This document shows positions 33,136 to 50,094 of a DNA stretch of 64,000 nt, piece by piece. The notes beneath the pieces are model-generated. The model was not told the origin of the DNA and ran no database searches. It saw only the letters and a program-made list of their open reading frames with translations. Location of the stretch: the NCBI GenBank assembly GCA_022376465.1, contig JACDTU010000002.1, forward strand, positions 2,790,001 through 2,854,000. Direction: 5' to 3'. The position numbers were made by a program, and so were the translations under genes. Source of the DNA: Cubamyces lactineus. Its lineage: Eukaryota > Basidiomycota > Agaricomycetes > Polyporales > Polyporaceae. Every line of letters starts with the position of its first letter. Positions within the stretch are counted from its first letter, which is position 1.

Positions 33136-34429
33136 TTAGAGATCCAATATAGCGTTAGGGTTTCTCTCAACAACTTCTGGGCGATAAACGTCCAAAGAGA
33201 TGTTAATGAGATCCGCTTCGTTACCCACCACCTGAATACGGTCCCACAGCGCACACTCCGTTGTCGACATACCTATAGCTTGGCGGTAAGTCGTCGGAAC
33301 GCGTTCTGCTTCGACCTTGAAAGCAGGAAAATTTCCCCTTCGAGCGATGACATCGTCGATGAGAAGGGAAGCCGCCTTGGTAGTCCTAACTGAAGCCTCC
33401 GGCCACCGAAGATGGTAGAAAGCCATGATTTGGGTGACTGAAGTGCCGAAGTATTCGTTAGGGACCATGAAGATGTCGCCATTGTAGTTAATATAACCGA
33501 GTCGATCTTCTCCAGTTCCTTGAAAGAAAATGCATCGTCCATGAGGACCCTCAACGTTCTTGAAGAGAGTCATTGGAGGAGGGGGAGGAGGAGAGGGAGC
33601 CCTAACAGTGACCTTGAGGGCGTCGTGGAACTCCTCTTCCGAAAGTTTGTCGACAGTGCTGAGCTCAAGATGATCAAGCTCCGGGAGTAAGTCGAAAGAC
33701 TCGACCTCAGAGCAGGGCGAGTCGGAATGAGAAGAGATGAGGGAGGGAGTGGACTCCTCGACTGGAGTCAGACCCCACTTGATAGCCTCCTCCTTAGGGT
33801 CAGGAATGGAGACCTTCCAAGGGTCTGTTGAGGGAGTGGACCATCCTCCAGAGTGCTCCTCATCCTTGTCTTCATCCTCATCCAAGGAATCCGCCTTGAA
33901 AGGCTTCTGGTAGTCGTCGAGATGCGTAGGCCAGAAAACATGTCCCCAGTTCTGGATACTATGTTGGTTGCGAAGCGGCATGAGATCCAAGAGAACCCCC
34001 GCGACCTGGGGGTTAGCGAGCATAGACATGACTTTCTCTGCTGCATGGATCACCACTTGGTAGGCCTCGCTTGCGACTTGAACCACCTTCTTCTTCTCCG
34101 ACTTGGGCGCCGGCGTTCTCTTGTTGTATGAGGAGAACAGCATACAAAGGAGTGGCTCTAGCCAGAGCGCGGTAGACGTCGATGAGGTCCTTAACCTCGG
34201 GGAGATGGGAAACCCTAGCCTCGACATGGCTGTAGAGGTCGGGATGGACAATAACCCAGCCAATGCGATCGGCGAGGGTACCTTCGTCGTGAATAGAAAC
34301 CGTGTGTCGGGGAAGATGATTGTAGAATACCGTTCGCCGTTCACGAATGAAGTTAGGAGGGCGAGGGATATGACGTCTCGAGCCCTCAGTGAAGCGACGT
34401 TCAGTGAGACGAGTACGAGTGTAGACCAT
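33136..34429 (-). CDS. Accessory ORF of outer gypsy element, after pol
   Basis: The frame starts at ATG 34429 (MVYTRTRLTERRFTEGSRR) and continues to about 34110. There it must shift by one base into a second frame (NKRTPAPKSEKKKVV) running to a stop at 33136, for about 430 residues in all. The N-terminus is basic. The middle is acidic and S/P-rich (DSLDEDEDKDEEHSGG), with a PPPPPP run. The C-terminal third is folded-looking (RCIFFQGTGEDRLGYINYNG, FMVPNEYFGTSVTQIMAFYH). There is no signal peptide, TM segment or domain I recognise. It occupies the position of env between pol and the 3' LTR, in the sense direction, starting 66 nt after the chromodomain stop. The frame break may be decay or, less likely, programmed. 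Confidence 0.6.
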
Positions 34430-34495
34430 TGTGAAGTTATGAGAATTGTTGAGAAAATTCGAAGAAATATTTGAGAGGGAAGTGCGTTGACTCTT

Positions 34496-36137
34496 TCACC
34501 GCAACTCGTGCCTCTTCTTATAGTTGCGCAGGACCGTCTGCGCATTCTTGAGATGCTTTTCTGGCTCCCTAGAATTTCCCGACGCAGGCCAACCCTTCCA
34601 AGCCACGAGATACTGCTTTTGGGTACCTCTAGTGCAGTGACTTAGGATCGCCTCTACCTCCCATTCCTCCCCTTCAGTCAACTCTGGGGTTGGAACTGGT
34701 GGAGGTTAGATGTAGTCTGGGCCGTGCTCCTTTGTTGTGTGGTATGGGGTGAGTAGCGCTGCATGGAAAACGGGGTGTATCTTCCATGTCTCCGGAAGTT
34801 TTAATTTGAATGTGACCGGCCCTAAGGCCTTAACAATTGTGAATGGTCCCACTCTTTTTGGAATTAACTTCCTGGAGGCATATGGGAGCCTAAGGTTCTT
34901 TGTGTCGAGAAGAACCTTGTCTCCTTGCTTCAGCGGTACTCGAGCAGCAGGGATCCTTTTTAACATTGCTGCGGCCACTTGAGCATGTGCAGCGATTGTA
35001 TTCTCCCTGGCTTCTTGAAGACTTTGAAGCCTCTGCTCCATGCTTGGATGCTTTGGGGTTGTTTTGACTGTCCCAATGGCCTCTGGCTGAAATCCGTAGA
35101 GGAGTTCAAAAGGGGATTTTCCCATGACAGAGTGTGTCCGCTGATTATGCGCGAATTCGAATTGAGGCAGCAGTTTGGCACAGGTGTCCAGATTGTTAGC
35201 ACAGTAGAGTCGAAGTGCTAAATCAAGTTCTTGATTGACTCGTTCTGTTTCCCCATCTGTTTGCGGATGATAGGCCGTACTGAGCGCAGTTTCGATTCCT
35301 AGGCTGTTATGTAATTCTTTGAATGCCTTGGAGACGAATTGCGGTCCTCGATCCGAGATCATCTTTGCAGGTAATCCGAACCTGCGATATACATCTCTTT
35401 GCAGAATATCCATGGCTCCTTCAGCCATAATATTCTTTGTGCAGGGAGAGAATACTGCTGCCTTGGATACATCATGATCGACTACTACTTGGATGGCATT
35501 GAACCCATCCGACTCTGGTAAATCGGTGATATAATCCATGGTGATCGTCCGGAAAGGCCTAGTATCCCCACTGTGTTGTATGGGAATTAAACCTGGTTTG
35601 AGGGGATGTGTATTGACCTTGCATGTTTGACAAGCTGCGCAACCCTTGACATATTGTGTGATGAATTTTCGCATGCCTGGCCACATATATTCCCGTTTAA
35701 CCAAATCGTAGGTCTTCTGGACTCCTGGGTGTCCCATAATTGGCGCATCATGACATAACTTGACTATATCATGGTACAACTGATTATCTGGTGGAACATA
35801 TATTCTGTTCTTGTACAGAAGTATTCCATTATCATCGGACCAATCTTCTGGTTTGCCGAACTCCGGGCGTTTGGTAGCCTTTCCTTTTGGAGTAATGTAC
35901 TTCACTACCGAGGTATCCCGTAGTTTGCTATCCCTAATGCGCTCTTGAAGCTCGACATTGATAGCCTTGACAAACAATTCTGATCCTAGGACAACAACGT
36001 CCTTGTTGTCATTTTCCCCCCCGTCATGCCCTGATCTCCGAGAAAGGGCGTCTGCTTGAGTGAGGGATTTTCCAGGTTGATGCTTGATTGCAATGTTGAA
36101 TTCCGAGAGGAATAAATGCCATCGAGCTTGTCTACGA
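34496..36137 (-). pseudogene. Outer element pol, 3' half: RNase H end, integrase, chromodomain
   Basis: It reads from 36137 after the nested insertion: QARWHLFLSEFNIAIKHQPG and ADALSRR (end of RNase H/connection). The integrase zinc finger is DAPIMGHPGVQKTYD then CAACQTC. The catalytic D, D and E are in TMDYITDLPES, ISDRGPQFVS and DGETERVNQELD. The GPF motif is RVGPFTIVKALG. An in-frame TAA at 34706-34708 follows HGPDYI. Past it, in the same frame, is a chromodomain: EEWEVEAILSHC, QYLVAWKGWPASGN, LKNAQTVLRNYK, ending at 34496. The chromodomain directs integration into H3K9-methylated chromatin in chromoviruses. The stop would detach it from the integrase. Confidence 0.85.
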
Positions 36138-37212
36138 TGATGCGCATGGTGCCATCCCAGGCTCGGAGCAGAGCGCCGGCGCGACTTCGCGATCCCCGCT
36201 TCCTTCTCCTTCAATCCTGCTCCCGCTAGCTGCGACTCCACGCGACGCTTCGCGCCTTCACACCTTCGCGAAACCCTTCGCGCGCGAGCGGAGCAGTTCG
36301 CGCGCACATCCCTGGTCCCGCATTCATCTCCTCGACCTCGCGGACGTGTCACGCCCACCTACGGACCGCATTGTCCGACGGAAACCTCGCGGAATGGCGC
36401 CATATCACGCAAGGGGCAGCACAGAGCCTATAGGAGGTCGCGGAGAGGCTGCATAGTGAGTCAGCCTCGCGGCGAGGCCACGCGGACTTGCCAAGACTTG
36501 ATGGACTGTAGCACAGCGCTCCCCTGTAAAGTACACGCCCCAGAGGGCCAGAGAACTCAGATGCCCTTTCCCCCATACCCTTAGGGTCTCTCAGTTGTGA
36601 TATTTACGACCTGCGAAATCTGCGAAATCTGCGAACTGCGAACTGCGAAACTTGCGAACTGCGAACACTGCGAACTGCGAACCCTTGCGAAACTGCGAGC
36701 TGCAAATCCTTGCGAAACTGCGAACTGCGAATCTCTTGCGACGACCCTTGCGAAAACTGGCGAAAACCGCGTAGTTGCGAAATCACGCGAAGCTGCGAAA
36801 ACGGACTCCGCGAAAGTTTGCGAAATTCTGCGAAATCTGTAAAATCGGCGAAACGGACAGGTGCGGAACGTGTATTGGGAGTGCCACGTCAGGCGAGTTG
36901 CAACAGTCTTCGCGCGGAACCCTGCGCTCCTCTCCCCTTGCCCTTTTCTTTCCTCTCTCCCAGCAGAAGCCGCAAACTCTCCCTCCGCGCTCTCGCGCAG
37001 CTTTACACTCTTCGCAAAGGCCCGCCAACCCTCTCTATCCACCCCCTTTTTGGTCCTAGGCTTCACTACGGCCCGCGCTAGTCACAGGGCACCCGACTCC
37101 AACCTCCCCTCTCCTTTGCGTCCTCTCCCTTCTCCCCTGCTAGCAGGCCTCGACCTACAAAGGCTCTCGGCCTGAGTAGTATCCTTCCCTTACGGGTGGG
37201 TTAGACGCATCA
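36138..37212 (+). repeat. 5' LTR of nested gypsy element
   Basis: It is 1075 bp with 7-bp inverted ends (TGATGCG..CGCATCA). It is long for a fungal gypsy LTR and contains the CTGCGAA array described separately. No ordinary TATA box is obvious. All open frames in it recur identically in the 3' LTR and are not credible genes. Confidence 0.93.
36597..36860. repeat. CTGCGAA tandem-like array within the LTR
   Basis: About 25 copies of TGCGAA, with CTGCGAACTGCGAA, CTTGCGAAACTGCGA and CTGCGAAATCTGCGA spacings (period mostly 7-12 nt), fill 260 nt. The same array is in the 3' LTR (49479-49742). It could be a transcription-factor or silencing platform; the function is unknown. Confidence 0.85.
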
Positions 37213-37784
37213 TTTTGGTGACCACCGCAGGGGGGTGTGTTTAGATCACACAGTCGGTTTCCTCCTGTTGACGGCTCTTCGCGCCGTCTCTGTTCGCAAT
37301 TTCACGAACAACAAGCCCTGACTCAGGACCCTATACCCTCGCTTCTGAGCTACTAGTCGCGCGATTCACCAACCTAGTCAGACAGGCCAGCCAGTACCTC
37401 GACGGCGACTCCCTTACCGCGCTACTCGACCCTGTTTGCCTCCTCCTTGAGAGAGGGATCGAAAGGCTCACCAGCGAACCAGCAAGTGCCCCCTGGATCC
37501 GCGAAACTGCGCTTGCGATCATCGCGAACCCCATCAGCACGTCGCGACCACCCTCCCCGAACATCTCCTTCGCACCAGCGGAGGATTCTCTAGTCCGCTA
37601 CTCGTCGCCGTTCGGGAGCACCCTCACTTCGCTCTCAGACGCTTCGCCAGTCGAGCCTTCGCAAGAGGAGAGTGTTGGAGAAGCTTCTGCGTCCGCTGCG
37701 AGCCTCTTGGTTAACCTTCCTGACTCCTCCCCCGAAATCTCGCAAGTCTTTCACTCCATTCGCGAACCTGACCTGGTGGAAGCG
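37213..37784 (+). other. Leader of nested element with open frame before the first gag ATG
   Basis: A stop (TGA) lies at about 37275. From there the gag frame stays open for about 170 codons to the first in-frame ATG at 37785. It has a protein-like composition (SELLVARFTNLVRQASQYLD, LDPVCLLLERGIERL). Either Gag begins at a non-AUG codon, an exon is spliced on, or this is translated only by reinitiation. Confidence 0.5.
37216..37233 (+). promoter_or_regulatory. Candidate tRNA primer-binding site
   Basis: TGGTGACCACCGCAGGGG starts 3 nt after the 5' LTR. It begins TGG, as expected for pairing with a tRNA 3' CCA end. The tRNA identity was not determined. Confidence 0.5.
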
Positions 37785-40172
37785 ATGGCAGACCACGGCA
37801 CAAAACCTGCAATGCCTCCTCGCGGACACGCTACAGCACCTACCTTTGACCCCGCGAACCCGTGCAACCTCCGCCGCTTCTTCCTAGACGTCGAGGCACT
37901 CTTCGAGCGCAGTGGGGTAGAAGATGAGCAGCAGAAGAAGGTCTGGGTCGTTCGCTACCTTCCTATCGAAGTCGCGGAGCTGTGCGAAAGCCTGCCCGCC
38001 TACAGTGGCAAGGGCCATAGCTACCAGCAGTTCAAGACAGCCGTCATCGCCCTCTACCCGGGAGCAGGAGACGACCGCAAGTTCTCCATGGCGGAAGTCG
38101 AAGCTCTTGTCGCGCAGCGTGCGAAGTCACCCATCACCAACGTTGTCGAGCTCTCCAGCTACTACCGCGACTTCTACACTATGACAACCTACCTCATTGC
38201 GCAAGGACGGTGTTCCAAGTCCGAGCAGTCGCGCCTGTTCATTCGCGGGATCGCGGAGCCCCTTTGGGAGCGAATCCAGAAGAGGCTCGAGCTGAAGGAC
38301 CCAGACCACTACCCTGACGACCCCTACGATGTGGACAAGGTCTACGAGGCCGCGACCTTCATCCTGCATGGTACCATCATCGGCGGGAAGGTACCTTCGC
38401 AAAGCGCGAGCACCGCGGCTCCGCATCCGCCTACTACTGTCAAGATGGAGGACCTAGCTCCGATCCTAGCCCAGTCTGTCGGCGAAGGGTCGGCGAACGC
38501 AACAGCGCATACCGCGAACCGCTTCGCAGGGCCTCCACCTGGTGCCCCTCGCTATCAGCCAAACTTCGCAGCACAAGAGCAGCGTTACCCTCCCCCAGGC
38601 GGAAACTTCTGTCACTACTGCGGGAACCCTGGTTGCCAACTGCGAAGCTGCCCATTCGTGGAGGAGGACGTTCGCGCGGGCCGCTGCATGCGGAATCAAG
38701 AAGGTCGAGTCGTCCTGCCCAATGGAAACTTCATTCCTCGCCAGCTCCCAGGCTTTGACGGCATCACTATGCGCGACCGGCTGTACGAGTGGCATAGGCG
38801 AAACAATGTGAACGCGCCACCGCCAGCAGCACAGATGGTTCTCTCAATCGCGCCAGACAAGCCCAGCGCGAGCACCTTCCAACTCAGTGCAGAAGACAGG
38901 ATCGCGCAACTGGAGTATGAGATCCTCGCACTGCAGCAAGGCAGGCGGATGCGCTTTGACGGTGTAGAGGTCCCCCAACTCCGCAAACCTCGCTCGCGAC
39001 AGTCCTCCCCACCGGCTCCAGCCAGAGGCCGTTCGCAAGAGCCTCGGACGTTTGCTGATCGACAAGCCCCTCCGCACCTCCCTCCTACGTTCCGCCGCGA
39101 CACCAGAAGCCAAGAACCTCGACCGGTGACGCAATCCCAATCGCAAAGTCGCGAGGAGGCTCAGCAAACTCTCCCTAGCGAAGCGAGGAATGGCCAGGAG
39201 GTTGCCACAGGGGCGAAGGCAGACCTCCCTCGCCTGGCGGTCAGGCCACCTACCCCGCGACCAGCAATACAGGAGCAGCCTGCAGACCCTGAGCACCCCT
39301 TTGCGAAGGCGCGCGACGCGACCTATGCCCCGCCTAGAGTCCGTAACTTCGGCGCACCGGCCCCGCAAGGCAAGAGTGGGGACCGTGAACCCGCATACCG
39401 CACTCGCGCTCCGATCCAGCAGGAGGAGGTGGTGAAGAGTCTCTTCCAGCGGTCCATGACCACGCCGTATCTCACCGTCTCTATGGAGGAACTGCTGTCA
39501 ATCTCGCCAGAGCTCCGTTCGCAGTTCCGCGAGAAGATCACCCCAAGGCGTGTCGCAGCGGAGACGCGCACGGTCGCCTTTGCAGAAACTGACGAGGTGG
39601 TGGATGACGCGGCGAGCGAGGTCTGTTGCAGCGGCAAGCCTTTGGAGCCCGATGGTGTCATTGTCCCGGATCCCTACGAGGTCTACCTCCGCGACCTGGC
39701 ACCTTCGCGCGAAGCGATCGAACTCTCGGTGGCCAAGGAGTCGCACGCGCTCCGCTCCATTGTGGGGCTAGTCGACAACAAGGAGTACGTCAAGGCGATT
39801 GTGGATCCAGGGTGCATGATCATCGCGATGTCGGAGCATGTCTGCCACACCCTTTCGCTCGCCTACGACCCTAGCATTCACCTCAACATGGTCTCTGCGA
39901 ATGGCGAGACCGACAAGTCCCTGGGTCTGGTTCGCAATGTCCCCTTTCGTGTCGCCGACATCGTCCTCTACCTCCAAGTCCACGTCATTCGCAATGCAGC
40001 CTATGATATCCTCCTAGGCAGGCCGTTCGATGTGCTGACGAAGAGCGTTGTCAAGAACTTCGAGAATGAGGACCAGACCATCACCATTCGGTGCCCCAAC
40101 ACTGGTCAAGTCGCAACGATTCCTACCGTGCCCTGCGGACGTGCGCGGTTTCGAGCCGAACAGGATGCCTGA
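37785..40172 (+). CDS. Gag-protease polyprotein of nested gypsy element
   Basis: 795 residues from ATG 37785 (MADHGTKPAMPPRG) to TGA 40170-40172. A capsid-like helical region covers about residues 25-200 (LRRFFLDVEALFERSGVEDE, LSSYYRDFYTMTTYLIAQGR, LFIRGIAEPLWERIQKRLEL). A zinc knuckle at about residue 280 reads FCHYCGNPGCQLRSCPF, i.e. C-X2-C-X4-C-X4-C with Cys where retroviral knuckles have His. After a proline/arginine-rich linker, an aspartic protease domain at about 660-790 has AIVDPGCMIIAMS, with DPG where DTG or DSG is usual, and YDILLGRPFDVLTKS near its end. It would form the particle and process the polyproteins. Its stop overlaps the pol ATG. Confidence 0.88.
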   Translation: MADHGTKPAMPPRGHATAPTFDPANPCNLRRFFLDVEALFERSGVEDEQQKKVWVVRYLPIEVAELCESLPAYSGKGHSYQQFKTAVIALYPGAGDDRKFSMAEVEALVAQRAKSPITNVVELSSYYRDFYTMTTYLIAQGRCSKSEQSRLFIRGIAEPLWERIQKRLELKDPDHYPDDPYDVDKVYEAATFILHGTIIGGKVPSQSASTAAPHPPTTVKMEDLAPILAQSVGEGSANATAHTANRFAGPPPGAPRYQPNFAAQEQRYPPPGGNFCHYCGNPGCQLRSCPFVEEDVRAGRCMRNQEGRVVLPNGNFIPRQLPGFDGITMRDRLYEWHRRNNVNAPPPAAQMVLSIAPDKPSASTFQLSAEDRIAQLEYEILALQQGRRMRFDGVEVPQLRKPRSRQSSPPAPARGRSQEPRTFADRQAPPHLPPTFRRDTRSQEPRPVTQSQSQSREEAQQTLPSEARNGQEVATGAKADLPRLAVRPPTPRPAIQEQPADPEHPFAKARDATYAPPRVRNFGAPAPQGKSGDREPAYRTRAPIQQEEVVKSLFQRSMTTPYLTVSMEELLSISPELRSQFREKITPRRVAAETRTVAFAETDEVVDDAASEVCCSGKPLEPDGVIVPDPYEVYLRDLAPSREAIELSVAKESHALRSIVGLVDNKEYVKAIVDPGCMIIAMSEHVCHTLSLAYDPSIHLNMVSANGETDKSLGLVRNVPFRVADIVLYLQVHVIRNAAYDILLGRPFDVLTKSVVKNFENEDQTITIRCPNTGQVATIPTVPCGRARFRAEQDA

Positions 40173-43100
40173 ACCCCAGCTAGACTCTCTCTTTGAAGAC
40201 GATGATGGCGAAGTCGCACTCGTCATCAGCGAAGAGGGAGGCGTTCCGCGCATCTGCGCCTATTCCAAAATTTGCGACAGCTCAGTTCCTGTTCCTGCTC
40301 TCTATCTATCTGCCTGCGATCGACTCCCTGAGATTGTGGATACCTTCTTGCACTCTAAAACCCAACAAAGCGAACCGGTTTCTCCAACTTCCCCTCAGTC
40401 TGCTTCCGCTTTTTTCGCGTCTTCCAGTGTCTCTCACGAATCTATTCCAAGAACCCCAGCGCAGCCCTCGTATTCGCATCCAGCGACAGTTCATGCTAGT
40501 CCTTACGCGACATCGTGTCTGGCTTGCGAAGATACCCCATCGATTGACAAGCCATGTCCGGGTTCAACCCCATCAAACCCTGCCTCTGTTTTTGCTAATG
40601 AGCGAAAACGCGAAGGACCTCTCTCCTTCACCTATCAAGTTGGCGACAGTACCTACACAGTCACTCCCCGCTCGCAAGGCACTCCTGCTGGTGTATTTCT
40701 GCACGCGAAGGCTGCTGGCCCAACTTCGCACTCCGAGACATCCCTACCCAAGCCCCACACGCGCACGCCACGTCCCCATCCTCCAGCCTCCACTCCTCCC
40801 CGCACGCCAAAGCCTTCGCGACCGCAGAAAGGGCTCACCGCGACGTTCCTTCAGACCAAGAAGAAGTATAAGCCGGTCGCGAAGAAGGTCCGCGCCTCGA
40901 AGGGGCCCTGCCCAGAGCAGTTTCGCATCGAGCGGAACATCACTGGGGACCCTCTCGCGAACATGCCTCAGCTCAATCCACGTCCACCAGAGTTCACCCC
41001 CACTGGTCGCTACACTGCGGAGCGCAAAGAGGCAATGGATCGCGCGCATGGCGGAGACTTCCTCTGGCAGGAGGAGCGAAAGCTCCTCCACAACTTCATG
41101 TGCCAGCACAACGACGCCTTCGCATGGAGCGACGCGGAGCGAGGCTGCTTCAAGCCGGAGTTCTTCCCCCCGGTCAAGTTCCCTGTGGTCCAGCATACCC
41201 CTTGGGTCGAGAAGAACATCCCTATTCCCCCTGGGCTCTACAAGGAGGTCTGCGAAATTCTCAAAAAGAAGATCGCGGCCGGCGTGTATGAGCCCTCCAA
41301 CTCCTCCTACCGCTCGCGGTGGTTCTGCGTCCTGAAGAAGGACGGGAAGTCGCTGCGAATTGTCCACAGCCTTGAACCGCTCAACAAAGTTACCATTCAG
41401 CACTCTGGGGTCCCTCCTACTCCAGACTATCTCGCGGAGCAGTTTGCAGGGCGCCCTTGCAGCGCGATCTTCGACCTCTATGTCGGCTACGATGAGCGGT
41501 TGATTTCGGAGGCTTCGCGCGACCTCACCACCTTCCAGACCCCCTTTGGAGCCTTGCGACATTGTACTCTGCCCATGGGCTGGTCTAACTCGGTCCCCAT
41601 CTTCCACGACGACGTCACCTACATCTTGCGACCCGAGATTCCAGACATCACTGTGCCTTACATCGACGACGTACCCTGCAAGGGGCCTGAGTCTGACTAT
41701 CGCGACGAGGGAGGGTCGTACAAGACCATCCCCGCGAATCCAGGCATCCGCCGCTTCGTGTGGGAGCACTTCCAGAACATCAATCGCGTGGTTCAGCGGA
41801 TGAAGTACGCTGGCGGAACCTTCTCTGGCACCAAGTCCCTACTCTGCGCGCGCGAAATCATGGTCGTTGGGCACTGCTGTACACCCGAAGGGAGACTGCC
41901 AGATGAGTCGCGAGTGAAGGCTATCGCGAACTGGGGACCCTGCAAGGATCTGTCTGAGGTTCGCGCATTCCTAGGCACCGTTGGCGTCGCACGAATCTTC
42001 ATTCGCAACTTCGCAAAACGCGCGCACCACCTAGTCAAGCTCACTCGCAAGGACGTCCCCTTCGAGTTTGGCCCCCTCCAGCTCGCCGCGATGGAGGACC
42101 TCAAGAAAGCGCTCCTAGACTCTGAGGCACTGCGAGCTCTTGACTACGAGTCCCCCGCGCCAGTCATCCTTGCCGTGGACACTTCGTATATCGCAGTTGG
42201 ATACCACCTGTGTCAATGCGACGAGAAGAACCCTAAGAAGCGCTACTACAGTCGCTTCGGGTCCATTACCCTCAATGATCGCGAATCGCGTTTCTCGCAG
42301 CCAAAGCTCGAGCTCTACGGCCTCTTTCGCGCCCTGCAGGCGATGAAGCTCTACCTCATTGGAGTTTGCAACCTAGTTGTCGAAGTCGACGCCAGATACA
42401 TCCGCGGAATGCTCAACAACCCAGATCTCGCCCCTAGCGCGAGTATGAACCGCTGGATTGTCGCCATTCTCACCTTCCACTTCCACCTAGTTCATGTTCC
42501 CGGCACTTCGCATGGCCCAGATGGACTCTCGCGACGACCAGTGCAGCCTGGAGACGACCCTCCGGAGAGCCAGGACGACTTTGAGGACTGGATCGACCGC
42601 GTACATGGCTTCATCCACCAAGTCCTGCCCTATCCCGCGAGAGCGAGACATATCCACCCAGACCCTATCCGCCTGTTCGCGCTGTCAGAGGCGACTGAGG
42701 ACAGTCGCGATTTCAGTGAGGGGGAGGATGCGAGTCGAGAGGCAAGCCAGGCGATAGGCGAGGACCCAAAGGCGCAGGAGACCTCGCGCGCGAGTTGCGC
42801 AGCAACAAGAGCTGCTATCCGAGTCGCATCAGAGGAGGAAGCGCAGACCATAGAGGAGCTGGATGGGCCAGAGGAGCTACCCTACTCGGAAGTGACACAG
42901 CGCGCGGAGGAGAGACTTCGCATGGTCGCGAAATGGCTGCAGGACCTTCAGAGGCCTCTAGAGCTCTCAGACACCGCCTATCAGGCATTCATCAAGTACG
43001 CGCAAGGCTTCTTCACAGACGACGCAGGAAGGCTATGGAAGAAGGACTCGCAGGGACGGCACAAGGTCGTAGTCTGGCGCGAGCGAAGACTGGACATCCT

Positions 43101-44325
43101 TCGCGAAGCACACGACCAGCTAGGGCACCGTGGACGCTATGCGACACTACAGCTCATCGCGGAGCGATTCTGGTGGCCCAACCTTGGCGAAGACGCGACG
43201 TGGTATGTCAAGACGTGCCACCTCTGTCAGCTGCGACAGCATCGTCAAGTCCTCATTCCCCCAACCGTCGCGAAGCCTGGAGGTCTCTGCACGCGCTGGC
43301 ATATTGACACCATGAAGATGCCCAACTCGGGTGGATACACTATGATCGTAGTCGCACGATGCTCTGTCTCTGCCTGGGTCGAGTGGCGAATGCTTCGCAC
43401 GGAGAATGAGAAGACTCTAGGCGACTTCATGTTCCAAGACCTGCTCTGTCGCTGGGGTGCGATAGTCGAACTAGTCACCGACAATGGATCTGCATTCATT
43501 AGCGCGGCCCGCGAACTCGAGCGACGATTCAATCTGAACCACATCAAGATCAGCCCCTACAACTCGAAAGCGAATGGCATCGTGGAGCGCTCGCACTTCG
43601 ACACCCGCCAGGTCCTGTTCAAGGCCTGCGGTGGCGATCAGCGGAAATGGTCGCAAGTCGCGCACTACGCCTTCTGGGCAGAGCGAGTCACTGTTCGCAG
43701 GCGCATGGGTTGCTCGCCGTACTTCGCAGTCACAGGTTGCCACCCAGTCCTGCCTATGGATATCGCGGAGGCGACATATCTGCTTCCCCCACCCGAGGGC
43801 ATTATGGCGACTGAAGACCTCATCGCGCGACGGGCGATCAAGTTGCAAAAGCGACAAGACCAGCTAGCGCAACTCAATACTCGTGTCTACGCCGCGAGGA
43901 TCGCTGCAGCAAAGAAGTTCGAGGAGAAGCACGCGACCACTATTCGCAACTACGACTTCGCTACAGGCTCACTGGTTCTTATGCGACACACTCAGATCAA
44001 GAAGAGCCTCAACCGCAAGATGCGACCCCGCTACACAGGACCGCTAGTCGTAGTGTCGCGGAACCGCGGAGGTGCCTACGTACTCTGCGAGTTGGACGGC
44101 TCTGTCTTGCACAGGGCCATCGCGGCTTTCCGACTCATCCCCTATCTCGCGCGAAAGGCTATCCCACTCCCCGCGAACTTTGTCGACATCTCTGAGAAGT
44201 GCCTCTCTGAGCTCATCCACTCGCAAGACAACGGCGAGGACGATCCGGAGCCAGAGGTGATCCGCGAGCCAGATGACAGCCAGACGAGCGATGAGGAGGC
44301 CAGCGAAGCTTCTATGGACGACTAA
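40165..44325 (+). CDS. Pol (RT-RNase H-integrase) of nested gypsy element
   Basis: 1386 residues from ATG 40165, overlapping the gag-pro stop as ATGCCTGA; the frame is open back to 40048. A ser/pro-rich spacer of about 270 residues precedes RT (about 275-640): SRWFCVLKKDGKSLRIVHSL, TPFGALRHCTLPMGWSNSV and the catalytic YIDD at about 499. RNase H (about 665-800) has AVDTSYIAVGYHL, FSQPKLELYGLFRAL and HVPGTSHGPDGLSRRP. The integrase has an HHCC finger (HDQLGHRG, CHLCQLRQH), catalytic residues in WHIDTMK, VTDNGSAF and NGIVERSHFD, and the GPY-type RPRYTGPLVVVSRN at about 1288. The tail is acidic; no chromodomain is seen. No stops or frameshifts break it, so it may be active. Confidence 0.93.
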   Translation: MPEPQLDSLFEDDDGEVALVISEEGGVPRICAYSKICDSSVPVPALYLSACDRLPEIVDTFLHSKTQQSEPVSPTSPQSASAFFASSSVSHESIPRTPAQPSYSHPATVHASPYATSCLACEDTPSIDKPCPGSTPSNPASVFANERKREGPLSFTYQVGDSTYTVTPRSQGTPAGVFLHAKAAGPTSHSETSLPKPHTRTPRPHPPASTPPRTPKPSRPQKGLTATFLQTKKKYKPVAKKVRASKGPCPEQFRIERNITGDPLANMPQLNPRPPEFTPTGRYTAERKEAMDRAHGGDFLWQEERKLLHNFMCQHNDAFAWSDAERGCFKPEFFPPVKFPVVQHTPWVEKNIPIPPGLYKEVCEILKKKIAAGVYEPSNSSYRSRWFCVLKKDGKSLRIVHSLEPLNKVTIQHSGVPPTPDYLAEQFAGRPCSAIFDLYVGYDERLISEASRDLTTFQTPFGALRHCTLPMGWSNSVPIFHDDVTYILRPEIPDITVPYIDDVPCKGPESDYRDEGGSYKTIPANPGIRRFVWEHFQNINRVVQRMKYAGGTFSGTKSLLCAREIMVVGHCCTPEGRLPDESRVKAIANWGPCKDLSEVRAFLGTVGVARIFIRNFAKRAHHLVKLTRKDVPFEFGPLQLAAMEDLKKALLDSEALRALDYESPAPVILAVDTSYIAVGYHLCQCDEKNPKKRYYSRFGSITLNDRESRFSQPKLELYGLFRALQAMKLYLIGVCNLVVEVDARYIRGMLNNPDLAPSASMNRWIVAILTFHFHLVHVPGTSHGPDGLSRRPVQPGDDPPESQDDFEDWIDRVHGFIHQVLPYPARARHIHPDPIRLFALSEATEDSRDFSEGEDASREASQAIGEDPKAQETSRASCAATRAAIRVASEEEAQTIEELDGPEELPYSEVTQRAEERLRMVAKWLQDLQRPLELSDTAYQAFIKYAQGFFTDDAGRLWKKDSQGRHKVVVWRERRLDILREAHDQLGHRGRYATLQLIAERFWWPNLGEDATWYVKTCHLCQLRQHRQVLIPPTVAKPGGLCTRWHIDTMKMPNSGGYTMIVVARCSVSAWVEWRMLRTENEKTLGDFMFQDLLCRWGAIVELVTDNGSAFISAARELERRFNLNHIKISPYNSKANGIVERSHFDTRQVLFKACGGDQRKWSQVAHYAFWAERVTVRRRMGCSPYFAVTGCHPVLPMDIAEATYLLPPPEGIMATEDLIARRAIKLQKRQDQLAQLNTRVYAARIAAAKKFEEKHATTIRNYDFATGSLVLMRHTQIKKSLNRKMRPRYTGPLVVVSRNRGGAYVLCELDGSVLHRAIAAFRLIPYLARKAIPLPANFVDISEKCLSELIHSQDNGEDDPEPEVIREPDDSQTSDEEASEASMDD
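42692..42732 (+). promoter_or_regulatory. Internal copy of hairpin + polypurine tract (candidate cPPT)
   Basis: CGACTGAGGACAGTCG then GATTTCAGTGAGGGGGAG then GATGCG repeats the sequence just upstream of and into the 3' LTR (48984-49026), with one substitution and a 2-nt gap. The first part is a hairpin (GCGACTG/CAGTCGC around AGGA). Here it is translated within pol as TEDSRDFSEGED. Confidence 0.7.
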
Positions 44326-44838: not shown

Positions 44839-46998
44839 CTAGTTTCGCGAGCCGGAGCCCGCCGCGGCGCTTGCACTCGCGCCAGCACCACCCTCAGGAC
44901 CGTCCGGGTGTGGCGCACCGTTCGGGTACATCTCCGGGTTGAGGCGAACGAGCTCCGCGATCAACTGCTGGATGCGCTGATGTTGGTCGGAGGCGATAGC
45001 GCCGTAGGCCTGGCAGCGCGCGCTCGCGAAGTCGCGCTCGAGTCGGAGGGCAGTGATGTGGAGCGCCCCGATGTTCGTGACGTTGGGCAGTGCCGCAGAG
45101 TATGCTTCGTGAAGGTCGTTCTGCCAGCGGAGCGCTTGCTGAAGGTACCCGCCCATGAGCTGGCGGAACCGCGCGGTTTCGTCCTCCAGGAAGGCGTCGA
45201 CCATCTGCACGCCCGGCGGGCTCGAGGTGAGGTAGGCCGGAGCAGGGTTCAGCACCAGCGGAGGCGGCAGCGGAGGGAGCAGAGGCAGGGAAGGGTTGTT
45301 CGCGAGGGTAGGCGGCGGAACAGGCGCAGGGTTTGCGACGGCAGGGACCTGCGCGAAGAGTTGCGTGGCAGGGTTGCGAGGACTCGCGCGGACAGCGGGC
45401 GCAGCGGGGAGCGACGCGCGAGGTGCTGCGACGCGAGGAGCGGAGGAGACGACAGCCGGCACACCTACTGCCAGGGAGTCAGCCACCAATGGTCTCGCAG
45501 CACTCACAGGGGGCCTACTCGGAGTCTCTACAGAGTTGCAACCGCGCGACGCCACACTAGCGGCGGGAGTCACCTGGGACTAGGGGAGTCAGTTTAGCGC
45601 TGTACGCAAGAGGGCAACTGTCAGCGACTTACTAGGACGAAGGCGCGATTGGGTCGCGAAGAGGATCCCGCTACGGGGGTAACCACCCGCGGAGTCGCGA
45701 CTGCCTTCCCCTCCGCAACCTTGGCAGCAGGGCGGGGGCGCGGCTTGTTAGCGGACCCAGATGGAGTTGGCTTCGCTGAGGAGGCGGAGGACGCGGCAGG
45801 GCGCACTTCCGGCTCCTTGCTGCCTACCTTCCCCTTGCGAAAGTCCTTCACGTACTGCGGGAGGTCACTCTCGCGAGTGTTGCGCTGCGCCATGATCTCG
45901 GAGGCAGTCTCCGCGGCGACGCGAATGGCTAGACAGAGGAAGCAGGCGAAGTTAGCGCAGTTCGCGAAGGCGCGAGGACACGACTTACCCCGGTCATACC
46001 CCTCCTTGTCGTACCATTCTGCGTACGACTTGTTCCCTTCAATGTAGCAGCCGCCGCGGTCGAAAAAGCACTGGTCGCACTTGGGAAGATTCGCATGGAG
46101 GACGCATGCCTTCTTCTTGCAGCGAACGCACTACAAGACACATCAGCGAGTTCGCGCGAAAAGCCAGCGAGGGGGAAACTTACCCCTTGGTCCGGGACCT
46201 TCGCACCTGGATAGTAGGCCGCAGGGAGCTGCGGTGGTGGGTCGCGACGAGCCTTCTTGGACGCGCGAGCAGGGGCCTTCTTCTTCGCAGACCCCTCAGC
46301 ATCTTCGTCCTCCACCGAAGGGGAACGCTGATGCTTCGCGGTCGCGCGCGAAGGGGGACCCGCCTTCTCCTTGCCCTTACCTTTGCCCTCGCTTGTCGCG
46401 GCTCGTGAGGTGGTGGCCCGGCCTTGGCTGCGAGTAGCTCGATTCGCCGAGGCAGGGGTCGAGATCTCCTCCTGGGTTTCCTCTTCCTGCGGGTCGTCAG
46501 CCCCACTCGCGTCACCTACAAGCTCGTCGCGCTCGTCCTCCTCCACTTCAGGGTCCTCACCCTCCTCCTCCGGCTCTTCAACCCCCGCATTGTATTTGTC
46601 TGCTCACCTATTATGCTCATGGTCTCATCAGACGCGAGGCGGTAAAAGCCCTCGCGGTAGAGAGGGTGGTGCCAAGGGCCATGCGCGCTGGTGAGGTTCT
46701 TCCACACCTCCGCGTCCGCGACCTCCATGGACGCCTTCACGACGCGGTCCACGAGCTCCTCCAGGAGGTCAGGGCTCGCGCCGGCTTCCTTTAGTTCCTC
46801 CTACCCTGGATGTTAGCTGCGCGAAGGACGGGAACAAGCCGCGAAGGAACTTACCAATACCGCGAGGATGTCCGTGGTGGCCCTCTCATAGTCCTCTACC
46901 TCGGCGCTACCCTCTGGGTAGCACTTCCAGAGCTCGTCGAACGTGTTGCGCCCGGCGCGAATGGCCTTCTTGCGGTCAGGGGAGGAGGCGGCAGACAT
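44839..46998 (-). CDS. Antisense gene A of nested element: cysteine-rich, six exons
   Basis: Exons on minus: 46998-46855, 46800-46608, 46575-46184, 46130-45989, 45928-45633 and 45579-44839; all phases agree and give 635 residues. The N-terminus is helical (SPDRKKAIRAGRNTFDELWK, PDLLEELVDRVVKASMEVAD). An acidic block and a basic nuclear-type block follow (EGKGKGKEKAG, KKKAPARASKKARRD). Exon 4 is a cysteine cluster, CVRCKKKACVLHANLPKCDQ then CFFDRGGCY, resembling a zinc-binding module. The C-terminus is proline/alanine-rich and then helical (LMGGYLQQALRWQNDLHEAY). It may be a nucleic-acid-binding protein; I do not recognise the family. Introns start GTAAGT in four of five cases. Intron 2 (46576-46607) is only 32 nt and doubtful. 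The opposite strand also has a long frame, but only minus shows splice sites and domain-like pattern. Confidence 0.68.
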
Positions 46999-47467
46999 GG
47001 GAGCGAGGGGCAAGCCAAGCAAGAAAGGGAGTACTCAAGAAAGTGCGAAAAGAGGGGCGCGACAAGACTCCGCAGACCCCCTCACCTCTTATGTCCCCCC
47101 TTCGCGAGCACCTTCGCACGCCCATATGACCCTGAATCAACTCGGCGAACTCTGCGAGCGCCTTGCGCGAGCTTCTATTTGACATACACTGATCTAGCGA
47201 CGGGCGCTATTCGCGCGAACTCTATTGTCTTCTGGTGGCGGTGCACCTCTCACAATGGGCCATCGCAAGCGGACTCCCTCGGCAGCGCAGACAATGCAGA
47301 CTGGAGGGTTGAGTAGAGTGACAATGGCGGGGCGCTAGCAATGTGATGCTGCCGAGATCCTCCTGCAAGGGCCCATGCGAGCAAAGAGCGGGGATTTTCG
47401 CGCGAAGGGAGGAGGCTCACATTCTCGAACTCTATTCTACGGGCTTCGATTCTAGAGCTCCGCCACT

Positions 47468-48173
47468 CTACTCCACCCTACCGTCCCCTTCTCCTAGTCG
47501 CCCCTGAAGTCTTTGGCGTGCGCGCGAGCCTTCTTCGCCTCCGGCCTCCGTCTCGCAGGCCGCGAGCTCGCAGTCCACTTCGCGCGAGAGGCGATGGGTC
47601 GCGACAATGATGTCTTGGGTTCGCGCGAGAGAGATAAACCGCTCTGGTCCAGCGCGATAGAGCACCTGGTTCATACTCTGGAGTTCGTCGCGATACTTAG
47701 CTAAGCGAGCTCTTGCGCTGCGGTACTGGAGTCGCGCGACATCCTGCTGAGCAAGGAAGGCACCGTCGCGGAACTTGACAAGTAGCTCTGGCGCGAGGCT
47801 CTCATGACGAAGAGCAGTTTCGATGCGTTGCAAGATGGGCTCGACTCCACCCGATCCGTGGCAGATAGACAGGAAGGCGCGCTACAGGACAGGTTTAGCG
47901 GCCTTGGTTCGCGACGAAGACAGAAGGTCGCACCAAGCGAAAGACACATTTCTCCACCGCCGCGACCCAGTCCTTAGGCGCGAAGCCTTCCAATTCGTGC
48001 ATGAACTCCAGCTCGGCGACCTGAGCTTCCAACTGATCGCGCGCGAGCTGTTTGGTCTCCAGGCGGAGGCCTGCGACTGCATCGGCGATGCCAGGGAGGG
48101 TATTCATGTCGCGAAGGTTCGCAAGACTGGGGTACTGGCTTCGCGCATTTATACCGCCAGGTATCACTCGCAT
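47468..48173 (-). CDS. Antisense gene C of nested element: helical protein, two exons
   Basis: Exons 48173-47934 and 47881-47468 are joined by a 52-nt GTGCGA..TAG intron, giving 217 residues. It is almost wholly predicted helix with heptad-like spacing (ETKQLARDQLEAQVAELEFM, LQYRSARARLAKYRDELQSM, RLSREVDCELAACETEAGG). It suggests a coiled-coil assembly or adaptor protein. There is no signal peptide or TM segment. The start ATG at 48173 follows a short spacer after gene B. It could be an independent gene or the second cistron of a longer antisense RNA. Confidence 0.58.
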
Positions 48174-48302
48174 CTCATCGATAATACCCCTCTGGATTTC
48201 GCCGCGGGTCCTGCTTCCCAGTCTAACCTGCCGCGAGGCCTGCCACGCCCCCCCTACACGTGTCCGTCGACTCTTCCTACCGCTCCTGTACCCTTTCCCC
48301 CT

Positions 48303-48904
48303 TTACTCGCGTCGCAGCAACTCCCAGTCTTGATAGGACTCTCTCAGCCACTCCCGCTCCAATCGCGATACCCCCTCCAACACCCCGCGCACCCGTATCA
48401 CATCTTCTGCAGGCGTAGGGTGGAGGCGGAAGACAATGTGTTGGATGGCCTCAGCCCGCTGCGATAACAGATCTAGCCGTGCGCGGAGGAGGTTCGCTCG
48501 GGCAGCGCGAACATCGCGCGCGATCTTGTAGAGGCGCCTGCGTGTCGCGCGAGCGAGAGAAGGGTCAATGACAGGCCCAGCGAGGGCCCTCTCCAGCCGG
48601 TCGATTGCGGACAGTACTTCCTCACTCTCCACGGCGGTCATAGCAAAAGCCTCCTGCGAAGCGAGTATGAGCGAGCCTAGCGCGCAAGCAATAGCAGCGG
48701 GTAGCTTACAAAAGCTGTGAGGAACCGTTCAAGAGTAGCCTCCCATTCTCCCCTCCAGTTTCGCCAGTCCTCGCCATAGCGGAGGAAGTCTTCGCGCATC
48801 AATTCCAGGGCTACTAGGCAGCCAAGGACTCCAGTATGGGCAGGCTCGCGCACCGCGTGCAGGAGTTCTTCGCAGGTTGCTTCTAGAAACCGCAAGGACG
48901 CCAT
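48303..48904 (-). CDS. Antisense gene B of nested element: helical protein, two exons
   Basis: Exons 48904-48710 and 48653-48303 are joined by a 56-nt GTAAGC..GCAG intron, giving 181 residues. It starts MASLRFLEATCEELLHAVRE and later has EVLSAIDRLERALAGPV, RRLYKIARDVRAARANLLRA and EGVSRLEREWLRESYQDWEL. These are long amphipathic helices much like those of gene C, so the two may be diverged duplicates. The ATG is 43 nt downstream (on minus) of a TTATATAA box and 116 nt from the 3' LTR. Its role is unknown. Confidence 0.62.
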
Positions 48905-48954: not shown

Positions 48955-49006
48955 GCCCGTAAATCCACACCCCGCGGTCGCGCCGACTGAGGACAGTCGA
49001 GATTTC

Positions 49007-49019
49007 AGTGAGGGGGAGA
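49007..49019 (+). promoter_or_regulatory. 3' polypurine tract of nested element
   Basis: GTGAGGGGGAGA (with the following base) directly abuts the 3' LTR start at 49020, as needed for plus-strand priming. It is preceded by the CGACTG AGGA CAGTCG hairpin (48984-48999). Confidence 0.75.
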
Positions 49020-50094
49020 TGATGCGCATGGTGCCATCCCAGGCTCGGAGCAGAGCGCCGGCGCGACTTCGCGATCCCCACTTCCTTCTCCTTCAATCCT
49101 GCTCCCGCTAGCTGCGACTCCACGCGACGCTTCGCGCCTTCACACCTTCGCAAAACCCTTCGCGCGCGAGCGGAGCAGTTCGCGCGCACATCCCTGGTCC
49201 CGCATTCATCTCCTCGACCTCGCGGACGTGTCACGCCCACCTACGGACCGCATTGTCCGACGGAAACCTCGCGGAATGGCGCCATATCACGCAAGGGGCA
49301 GCACAGAGCCTATAGGAGGTCGCGGAGAGGCTGCATAGTGAGTCAGCCTCGCGGCGAGGCCACGCGGACTTGCCAAGACTTGATGGACTGTAGCACAGCG
49401 CTCCCCTGTAAAGTACACGCCCCAGAGGGCCAGAGAACTCAGATGCCCTTTCCCCCATACCCTTAGGGTCTCTCAGTTGTGATATTTACGACCTGCGAAA
49501 TCTGCGAAATCTGCGAACTGCGAACTGCGAAACTTGCGAACTGCGAACACTGCGAACTGCGAACCCTTGCGAAACTGCGAGCTGCAAATCCTTGCGAAAC
49601 TGCGAACTGCGAATCTCTTGCGACGACCCTTGCGAAAACTGGCGAAAACCGCGTAGTTGCGAAATCACGCGAAGCTGCGAAAACGGACTCCGCGAAAGTT
49701 TGCGAAATTCTGCGAAATCTGTAAAATCGGCGAAACGGACAGGTGCGGAACGTGTATTGGGAGTGCCACGTCAGGCGAGTTGCAACAGTCTTCGCGCGGA
49801 ACCCTGCGCTCCTCTCCCCTTGCCCTTTTCTTTCCTCTCTCCCAGCAGAAGCCGCAAACTCTCCCTCCGCGCTCTCGCGCAGCTTTACACTCTTCGCAAA
49901 GGCCCGCCAACCCTCTCTATCCACCCCCTTTTTGGTCCTAGGCTTCACTACGGCCCGCGCTAGTCACAGGGCACCCGACTCCAACCTCCCCTCTCCTTTG
50001 CGTCCTCTCCCTTCTCCCCTGCTAGCAGGCCTCGACCTACAAAGGCTCTCGGCCTGAGTAGTATCCTTCCCTTACGGGTGGGTTAGACGCATCA
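49020..50094 (+). repeat. 3' LTR of nested gypsy element
   Basis: It is 1075 bp, co-linear with 36138-37212 at an offset of 12,882. Two substitutions were noted (A at 49080 and A at 49152, where the 5' LTR has G). It ends CGCATCA followed by the ACGA duplication. Confidence 0.93.

Follow-up and report, generated by a model that had tools for sequence, protein, structure and literature searches.

Introduction

In plants, gypsy retrotransposons of the Retand/Tat lineage have a long region between pol and the 3′ long terminal repeat (LTR) in which all surveyed elements have antisense open reading frames (ORFs) with predicted DNA-binding products, and a TRP28 domain is found in 97% of the Retand/Tat clusters (PMC11963269). 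Among described systems this is the closest in anatomy to the Ty3/gypsy element presented here, which lies in the wood-rot basidiomycete Cubamyces lactineus (contig JACDTU010000002.1, positions 2,790,001 to 2,854,000; this 64-kb stretch is called the window), since both have antisense ORFs between pol and the 3′ LTR; the text of that paper does not use the word "intron", and no element-wide short word is described in the portion covered (PMC11963269). The host here is a fungus, and the TRP28 domain (PF04195) of the plant elements had no Pfam match at E ≤ 1 in the three antisense proteins A (two genomic copies, C2 and C12), B, and C.

The VANDAL elements of Arabidopsis are DNA transposons. They encode VANC, an anti-silencing protein that targets a dense short motif, partly in same-orientation arrays, with divergent targets in related elements (PMC5735166). 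This is the closest mechanism to the one proposed below: the likeness extends to an element-specific dense word, partly in same-orientation arrays, to intron-containing accessory genes, and to different targets in related elements (PMC5735166). The carrier here is a gypsy retrotransposon, for which recognition of its own word is a proposal. VANC binds mainly non-coding DNA, with a motif that spreads by tandem repeats, whereas the word found here also fills synonymous coding sites (PMC5735166).

Two further systems are more distant. Fungal TET/JBP DNA transposons resemble the present case in that the elements are thought to encode their own escape from methylation silencing; they differ in being enzyme-based and in being DNA transposons, the paper noting no retrotransposon with TET/JBP (PMC12730594). 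Bdelloid LTR retrotransposons with ORF3 also have extra genes downstream of pol, but these are enzymatic and envelope-like, and antisense coding is not described in the corresponding part of the source (PMC5408684). By its sequence, the C. lactineus element belongs to neither Retand nor VANDAL/VANC, as it has no TRP28 and is not a DNA transposon.

Results

Three intron-containing genes lie antisense to gag-pol

Three genes on the minus strand, A, B, and C, sit between pol and the 3′ LTR, antisense to gag-pol (window positions):

44839..46998, minus strand: gene A, exons 46998-46855, 46800-46184, 46130-45989, 45928-45633, and 45579-44842; stop 44841-44839
46047..46130, minus strand: CX2CX4CX8CX2CX6C, zinc-cluster-like, opening gene A exon 3
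47468..48107, minus strand: gene C, exons 48107-47934 and 47881-47471; stop 47470-47468; 1 intron, 195 aa
48147..48153, minus strand: TATAAAT 5′ of gene C, conserved in the copies (five-copy alignment, by eye)
48303..48904, minus strand: gene B, exons 48904-48710 and 48653-48306; stop 48305-48303; 1 intron, 181 aa
48947..48954, minus strand: TTATATAA, TATA-like box 5′ of gene B (by eye), imperfectly conserved in the other subfamily

When aligned, the five genomic copies of this module bore out the original prediction, made from the window sequence, of a gypsy element with three intron-containing genes antisense to gag-pol before its 3′ LTR. That prediction had counted eight introns; we found six conserved ones (four in A, one in B, and one in C), all GT-AG and at identical positions in 5/5 copies, and the intron sequences themselves diverge by 20–53% between subfamilies. 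This conservation argues that the antisense genes are spliced, and they are presumably transcribed. Of the predicted lengths, 181 aa was retained for B, 217 aa gave way to 195 aa for C, and 635 aa to the 647 aa of A in the C2 copy. We place the start of gene C at 48107 because in C12 a stop comes after the upstream ATG of the 217-aa version (alignment, by eye), because the conserved TATAAAT lies between the two candidate ATGs, and because the Trametes cubensis model is also 195 aa long. The phases of A had been taken as correct throughout; compared with C2, exon 2 of the window copy is short by 4 bp near 46,617, which shifts the frame, and this exon is open in the four other copies. Judged from its frame, the window copy of A is damaged, and the earlier reading probably bridged the frameshift by an extra intron.

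The module is retained within the element and selected

We found five copies of the module in the 36-Mb genome (window, C2, C12, C8, and C6). They form two subfamilies, the window and C2 copies being 99% alike and the C12, C8, and C6 copies 97–98.5% alike, with 76% identity of the latter to the window. All five lie between a pol and an LTR in an identical layout, and no homologue outside the element was found in the genome with gene A exon 5, B, or C as queries (gene A exons 1–4 were searched as DNA only), in line with the expectation that homologues sit in the element and do not reflect a one-off capture. The ratio of nonsynonymous to synonymous substitution rates (dN/dS; Nei-Gojobori, C2 vs C12, one from each subfamily, with bootstrap ranges) was 0.215 (0.171–0.270) for A, 0.218 (0.140–0.335) for B, and 0.091 (0.051–0.149) for C; this check had been proposed with the prediction, and the values are well below 1. 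Substitutions in the module genes are also 3-periodic. Together, conserved introns, 3-periodicity, and dN/dS of 0.091–0.218 place the module far beyond chance open frames. LTR differences within copies were 0/982 (C8), 1/985 (C2), and 2/1075 (window), and these copies keep all introns; that copies with identical or nearly identical LTRs do so fits the suggestion that introns survive because the genomic RNA is the opposite strand.

Relatives of the antisense proteins occur in T. cubensis and Cubamyces, from which the host is probably a polypore of the Trametes clade. Independent annotation of T. cubensis predicts B at 181 aa and C at 195 aa; their gene numbers are consecutive, and an 8499-bp contig is given for each. 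The A homologue there is divergent (397 aa, 55% identity over 42%). In sister gypsy families (49% reverse transcriptase (RT) identity; C25 and C23, loci L029–L032), searches for A, B, and C gave nothing below E 0.08; these families are not delimited by LTRs, the sole long repeat there being inverted. As judged from these comparisons, the module is an inherited, selected gene set and not a one-off capture.

As a separate observation, gag and the 5′ part of pol in the C2 copy (L007/L008) are 82–85% identical to the window and the remainder is ~ 99% identical, so that C2 looks like a recombinant between subfamilies.

The word GCGA is dense throughout the element

GCGA/TCGC occurs 442 times in the 12,882 bp of the element, compared to 199 in dinucleotide shuffles (z 20); GCGAA reaches z 24, and longer forms of the word are CGCGAA and TGCGAA. 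Its density is 31–51 per kb in each of six parts (LTR, gag, pol, pol-A spacer, antisense exons, and introns), compared to 9.9 and 3.8 per kb in the rest of the window, 0–11.2 in the flanks of other copies, and 10.1–11.6 in the sister families, an approximately threefold enrichment over surrounding DNA. A pattern of three TGCGAA with gaps of ≤ 12 bases had 601 (overlapping) matches in the genome, and the reversed pattern had 2. An element-specific short motif at high density is present.

We then permuted synonymous codons gene by gene, so that the protein and its codon usage stayed the same. GCGA remained in excess in pol (144 vs 84, z 9.5; pol of C8, z 9.3), in gag (94 vs 59, z 6.5), and in B, C, and A exons 4 + 5 (z 2.4–3.4). 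Between subfamilies, 90/156 GCGA sites were kept, compared to 113/298 for the other NCGN words pooled (p = 7e-5); the reverse comparison gave 90/141 and 113/286 (p 3e-6), and in non-coding parts 31/56 GCGA were kept, against a fraction of 0.354 for all tetramers. Among 127 recent polarised changes in the module, there were 22 losses and 2 gains of GCGA, where 16.0 and 4.5 were expected at random; these values are near the random expectation, and mutation bias therefore does not explain the word. The two orientations, GCGA/TCGC, are nearly balanced in gag (44/50) and pol (79/65), which points to a DNA rather than an RNA signal; the whole LTR, with its array, has 32/12.

The word persists in a non-autonomous relative with no match to the genes

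Locus L035 (C34:1-8300) keeps gag and only traces of pol, with most of pol and the module absent; A, B, and C had no tblastn match in it at E ≤ 0.01. Its GCGA count is 181, compared to 63 in the shuffle test. Over the 1737 bp compared of each, the L035 LTRs share 99.9% identity, and a second LTR start adjoining the polypurine tract suggests LTRs of ~ 2.0 kb. A second copy of the L035 type at C2 is 99.3–99.5% identical over the compared parts, and L035 was probably mobile recently. Retention of the word without A, B, or C fits a trans-acting factor, which could equally well be a host factor.

A chromodomain gypsy has its own antisense gene and its own word

Nested in the C2 copy of the L035-type element is an 8316-bp chromodomain gypsy (Pfam Chromo), here called the chromovirus, with LTRs of 692 bp that are 99.7% identical. 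It has the following feature:

L036:1951-3344, antisense, between pol and the 3′ LTR: chromovirus spliced antisense gene (predicted)

This gene has 2 introns and a TATA box (by eye); its product is 426 aa long and has CX2CX6CX10CX2CX7C where exon 3 begins. Among the matches listed in the genome, 37 of 73 match pieces cover at least 320 of the 323 query residues, and the end of pol adjoins the antisense gene, in the opposite direction, in 5/6 fetched copies. A first cysteine pattern, with the last spacing fixed at 6, matched 0/6 chromovirus copies; with a last spacing of 6–8 it is present in 5/6 further copies, L040 being without it. Zn2Cys6 proteins have the spacing CX2CX6CX5-12CX2CX6-8C; the chromovirus protein fits it, with no Pfam Zn_clus match at E ≤ 1. 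Against six copies, dN/dS of exon 3 was 0.139, 0.173, 0.293, 0.332, 0.352, and 0.477, and exon 3 has a stop in two of the six (L039 and L041).

The chromovirus is not rich in GCGA. Its word is CGGA/TCCG (286 vs 131 in the shuffle test), with ACTCCG at 76 vs 11, and under synonymous permutation CGGA reaches z 4.8 in gag, 8.4–8.7 in pol, and 4.0 in the antisense open frame, which runs over introns. CGG is a common half-site of fungal Zn2Cys6 proteins.

The original prediction had named no described fungal equivalent of such antisense genes. In the literature this stands, in that a limited survey of titles and abstract openings gave no description of antisense genes in fungal LTR elements; in the genome it does not, as the chromovirus has the same layout.

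Control families

The pol permutation was applied to five other gypsy families, L029 and L030 being partial pols. The top tetramer had z 3.4 in L037, 4.2 in L046 (4.1 in L038, same family), 3.4 in L045, 4.3 in L029, and 3.3 in L030; L037, L045, and L046 are chromodomain gypsies. In the shuffle test, the strongest control was GAAG in L037 (z 11), which is not among the top words of L037 under codon permutation. A six-frame scan for the zinc-cluster pattern, set after both genes had been seen, covered the 64-kb window and L029, L030, L035–L038, L045, and L046, and matched only gene A and the chromovirus antisense gene. For the controls L037, L038/L046, and L045, the assessment of antisense genes covered ORFs of at least 150 or 160 aa and the cysteine scan.

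Minus-strand ORFs do occur at L037:7131-8553, where they are transposase-like (by eye) and lie 1.8–3.3 kb downstream of a chromodomain gypsy pol; mirror frames were seen in L046.

The antisense proteins

The zinc-cluster-like motif that had been noted in gene A was confirmed, and the copies conserve it; A has no match to any Pfam family, and with its spacing of CX2CX4CX8CX2CX6C and no Zn_clus match, it departs from the Zn2Cys6 type. Sub-threshold Pfam matches were discounted: KAR9 (E 0.0012) in A exon 4, HTH_53 (E 0.013) in C, and Podoplanin (E 0.57) in part of exon 2. A Foldseek search with the low-confidence model of C had no match below E 0.09.

B and C may be tandem paralogues. Their hhalign score was 34, compared to a maximum of 24.8 in 60 column-shuffled controls, with a probability of only 59–65%. 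In one alignment their introns, both phase 0, share a column (after residue 65 of B and 58 of C); when relatives were added in another alignment, the gap was shifted, so the intron match depends on gap placement. The predicted helices of B and C come in the same order in these low-confidence models. A relationship of the gene A N-terminus to B or C was also considered and rejected, as the profile comparison did not rise above shuffled controls.

Anatomy of the element and its site

The remaining features of the window element are as follows:

36138..37212, plus strand: 5′ LTR, 1075 bp
36611..36860, plus strand: TGCGAA/GCGAA array within the LTR, mostly in one orientation (limits by eye)
37272..40172, plus strand: gag (and protease) open frame
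40039..44325, plus strand: pol open frame, RT (YIDD by eye), RNase H, integrase
42691..42726, plus strand: internal copy of the 3′ polypurine-tract region, candidate central polypurine tract
49009..49019, plus strand: polypurine tract adjoining the 3′ LTR
49020..50094, plus strand: 3′ LTR

The two LTRs, each 1075 bp long, have 2 differences and the ends TGATG...CATCA, and an ACGA repeat flanks the element as a short target duplication. The gag and pol frames are open in different frames, both on the plus strand, and Pfam matched protease, RNase H, integrase zinc-binding, and integrase core domains. TG...CA LTRs, a short target duplication, and the RT-RNase H-integrase order are those of a Ty3/gypsy element. 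Pfam detected no chromodomain in pol, and RVT_1 had no match at E ≤ 1 in the RT region (window 41185-42522), where YIDD is present by eye; on this sequence evidence, the RT is of a divergent lineage.

About 35 bp of the 3′ polypurine-tract region (window 48983-49017), including GACTGAGGACAGTC, are repeated within pol (42691-42726). The internal copy is present in the window, C2, C8, C12, and C6 copies and is a candidate central polypurine tract.

The host site of the window element is a gypsy of another family, with minus-strand ORFs of that gypsy on both sides. In this host-site family, a sense ORF of ~ 452 aa directly follows pol (L038:3918-5276, L046:4565-5920, and window 33136-34641).

Discussion

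We tentatively prefer, at slightly less than an even chance, the interpretation that the spliced antisense set encodes self-recognising regulators that act in trans via GCGA, in anti-silencing or in LTR activation. The three genes would be transcribed from internal promoters against gag-pol and spliced, and their products would be trans-acting, with the DNA of the element itself as target. At least one product, most likely the zinc-cluster-like A together with the helical B and C, would recognise GCGA words, most strongly at the LTR array, where the words are densest. The outcome would be that the element is kept active against host silencing, or that its LTR is switched on, much as VANC does for VANDAL, and the introns would persist because the genomic RNA has the opposite sense. 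Anti-silencing, copy control, or targeting had been suggested with the prediction; the GCGA word, together with a different word in a second element, favours self-recognition, be it anti-silencing or activation. It is also possible, though somewhat less likely than not, that at least two separate fungal gypsy lineages each have a spliced antisense gene for a zinc-cluster-like self-recognition factor and have reshaped their whole sequence, including coding frames, to contain a private word read by that factor, as an independently evolved counterpart of VANC.

Several observations weigh against these proposals. The link between gene and word is a correlation over just two families that have both features, from a single genome. 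For none of the antisense proteins did a Pfam family, Zn_clus included, reach the cut-off; the second cysteine spacing of gene A is 4, atypical for Zn2Cys6, where it is 6; and a cysteine of the cluster is lost in the T. cubensis A homologue (by eye). Searches for relatives of solved structure gave weak unrelated matches for A and B and none for C, and the structure models of B and C are of low confidence (predicted local distance difference test (pLDDT), 62 and 67). In the module, GCGC is kept as well as GCGA (41/75), where GCGC sites can overlap GCGCGA. Conservation of CGGA from L036 to L039 and L042 had p 0.88 and 0.30, and p 0.02 each in the reverse direction, and gains and losses in the CGGA family are very few. 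Mild excesses of GCGA in the L045 pol (z 3.4) and of CGGA in L046/L038 (z 4.2/4.1) were seen among the controls, and as the control families are not LTR-delimited, antisense genes may have been overlooked in them.

The words could instead be read by a host factor, for example a cell-cycle regulator of the MBF/SBF type, with the antisense genes doing an unrelated job such as assembly or nuclear import. The CGCGAA and TGCGAA forms resemble MBF/SBF-type sites, no antisense protein has a recognised DNA-binding domain, and the persistence of the word in the gene-less L035 is an equally good fit. Host sites would be expected near the promoter only, yet the word is equally dense across exons, introns, and coding frames, and in the second element the antisense gene and the word both differ; we regard the host-factor explanation as unlikely. 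The antisense proteins or RNAs might also limit the element, by copy-number control or repression, with the words as operator sites. Such a role would suit the small number of copies found with the module (five in 36 Mb) and antisense transcripts that would overlap the 3′ end of the genomic RNA. Selection at the protein level argues against a pure RNA effect, and the CGGA family, with its antisense gene, stands at tens of copies; we hold repression to be rather improbable.

Both words contain CpG, codon usage is shifted as well (GCG, TCG, and CGC), and the conservation of GCGC is about as good as that of GCGA in the module, as would be expected if mutation bias, codon usage, or low complexity had produced the words without selection. 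We consider this very unlikely, since the enrichment survives a permutation that keeps codon usage, extends to the introns, and is being eroded by recent mutations that remove GCGA, and since the pols of five other families have no comparable word (top z ≤ 4.3). Least probable, and hardly credible in our view within this genome, is that the module consists of captured host genes or random open frames. The genes are short and without known domains, as such an origin would predict; against it stand the lack of any other genomic homologue of A exon 5, B, or C, the dN/dS of 0.09–0.22, the conserved introns, and the same layout in five copies.

Plant LTR retrotransposons are known to have antisense genes; here such genes can be tied, via a measurable DNA signature, to a testable recognition of self DNA, and the presence of two elements with two words in one genome makes a swap test possible. 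The persistence of the introns fits the idea that intron-containing genes can be maintained in an element that replicates through RNA when they are read from the other strand. If the self-recognition reading is true, a retrotransposon can flag the whole of its sequence, even the coding frames, for a regulator that it encodes itself.

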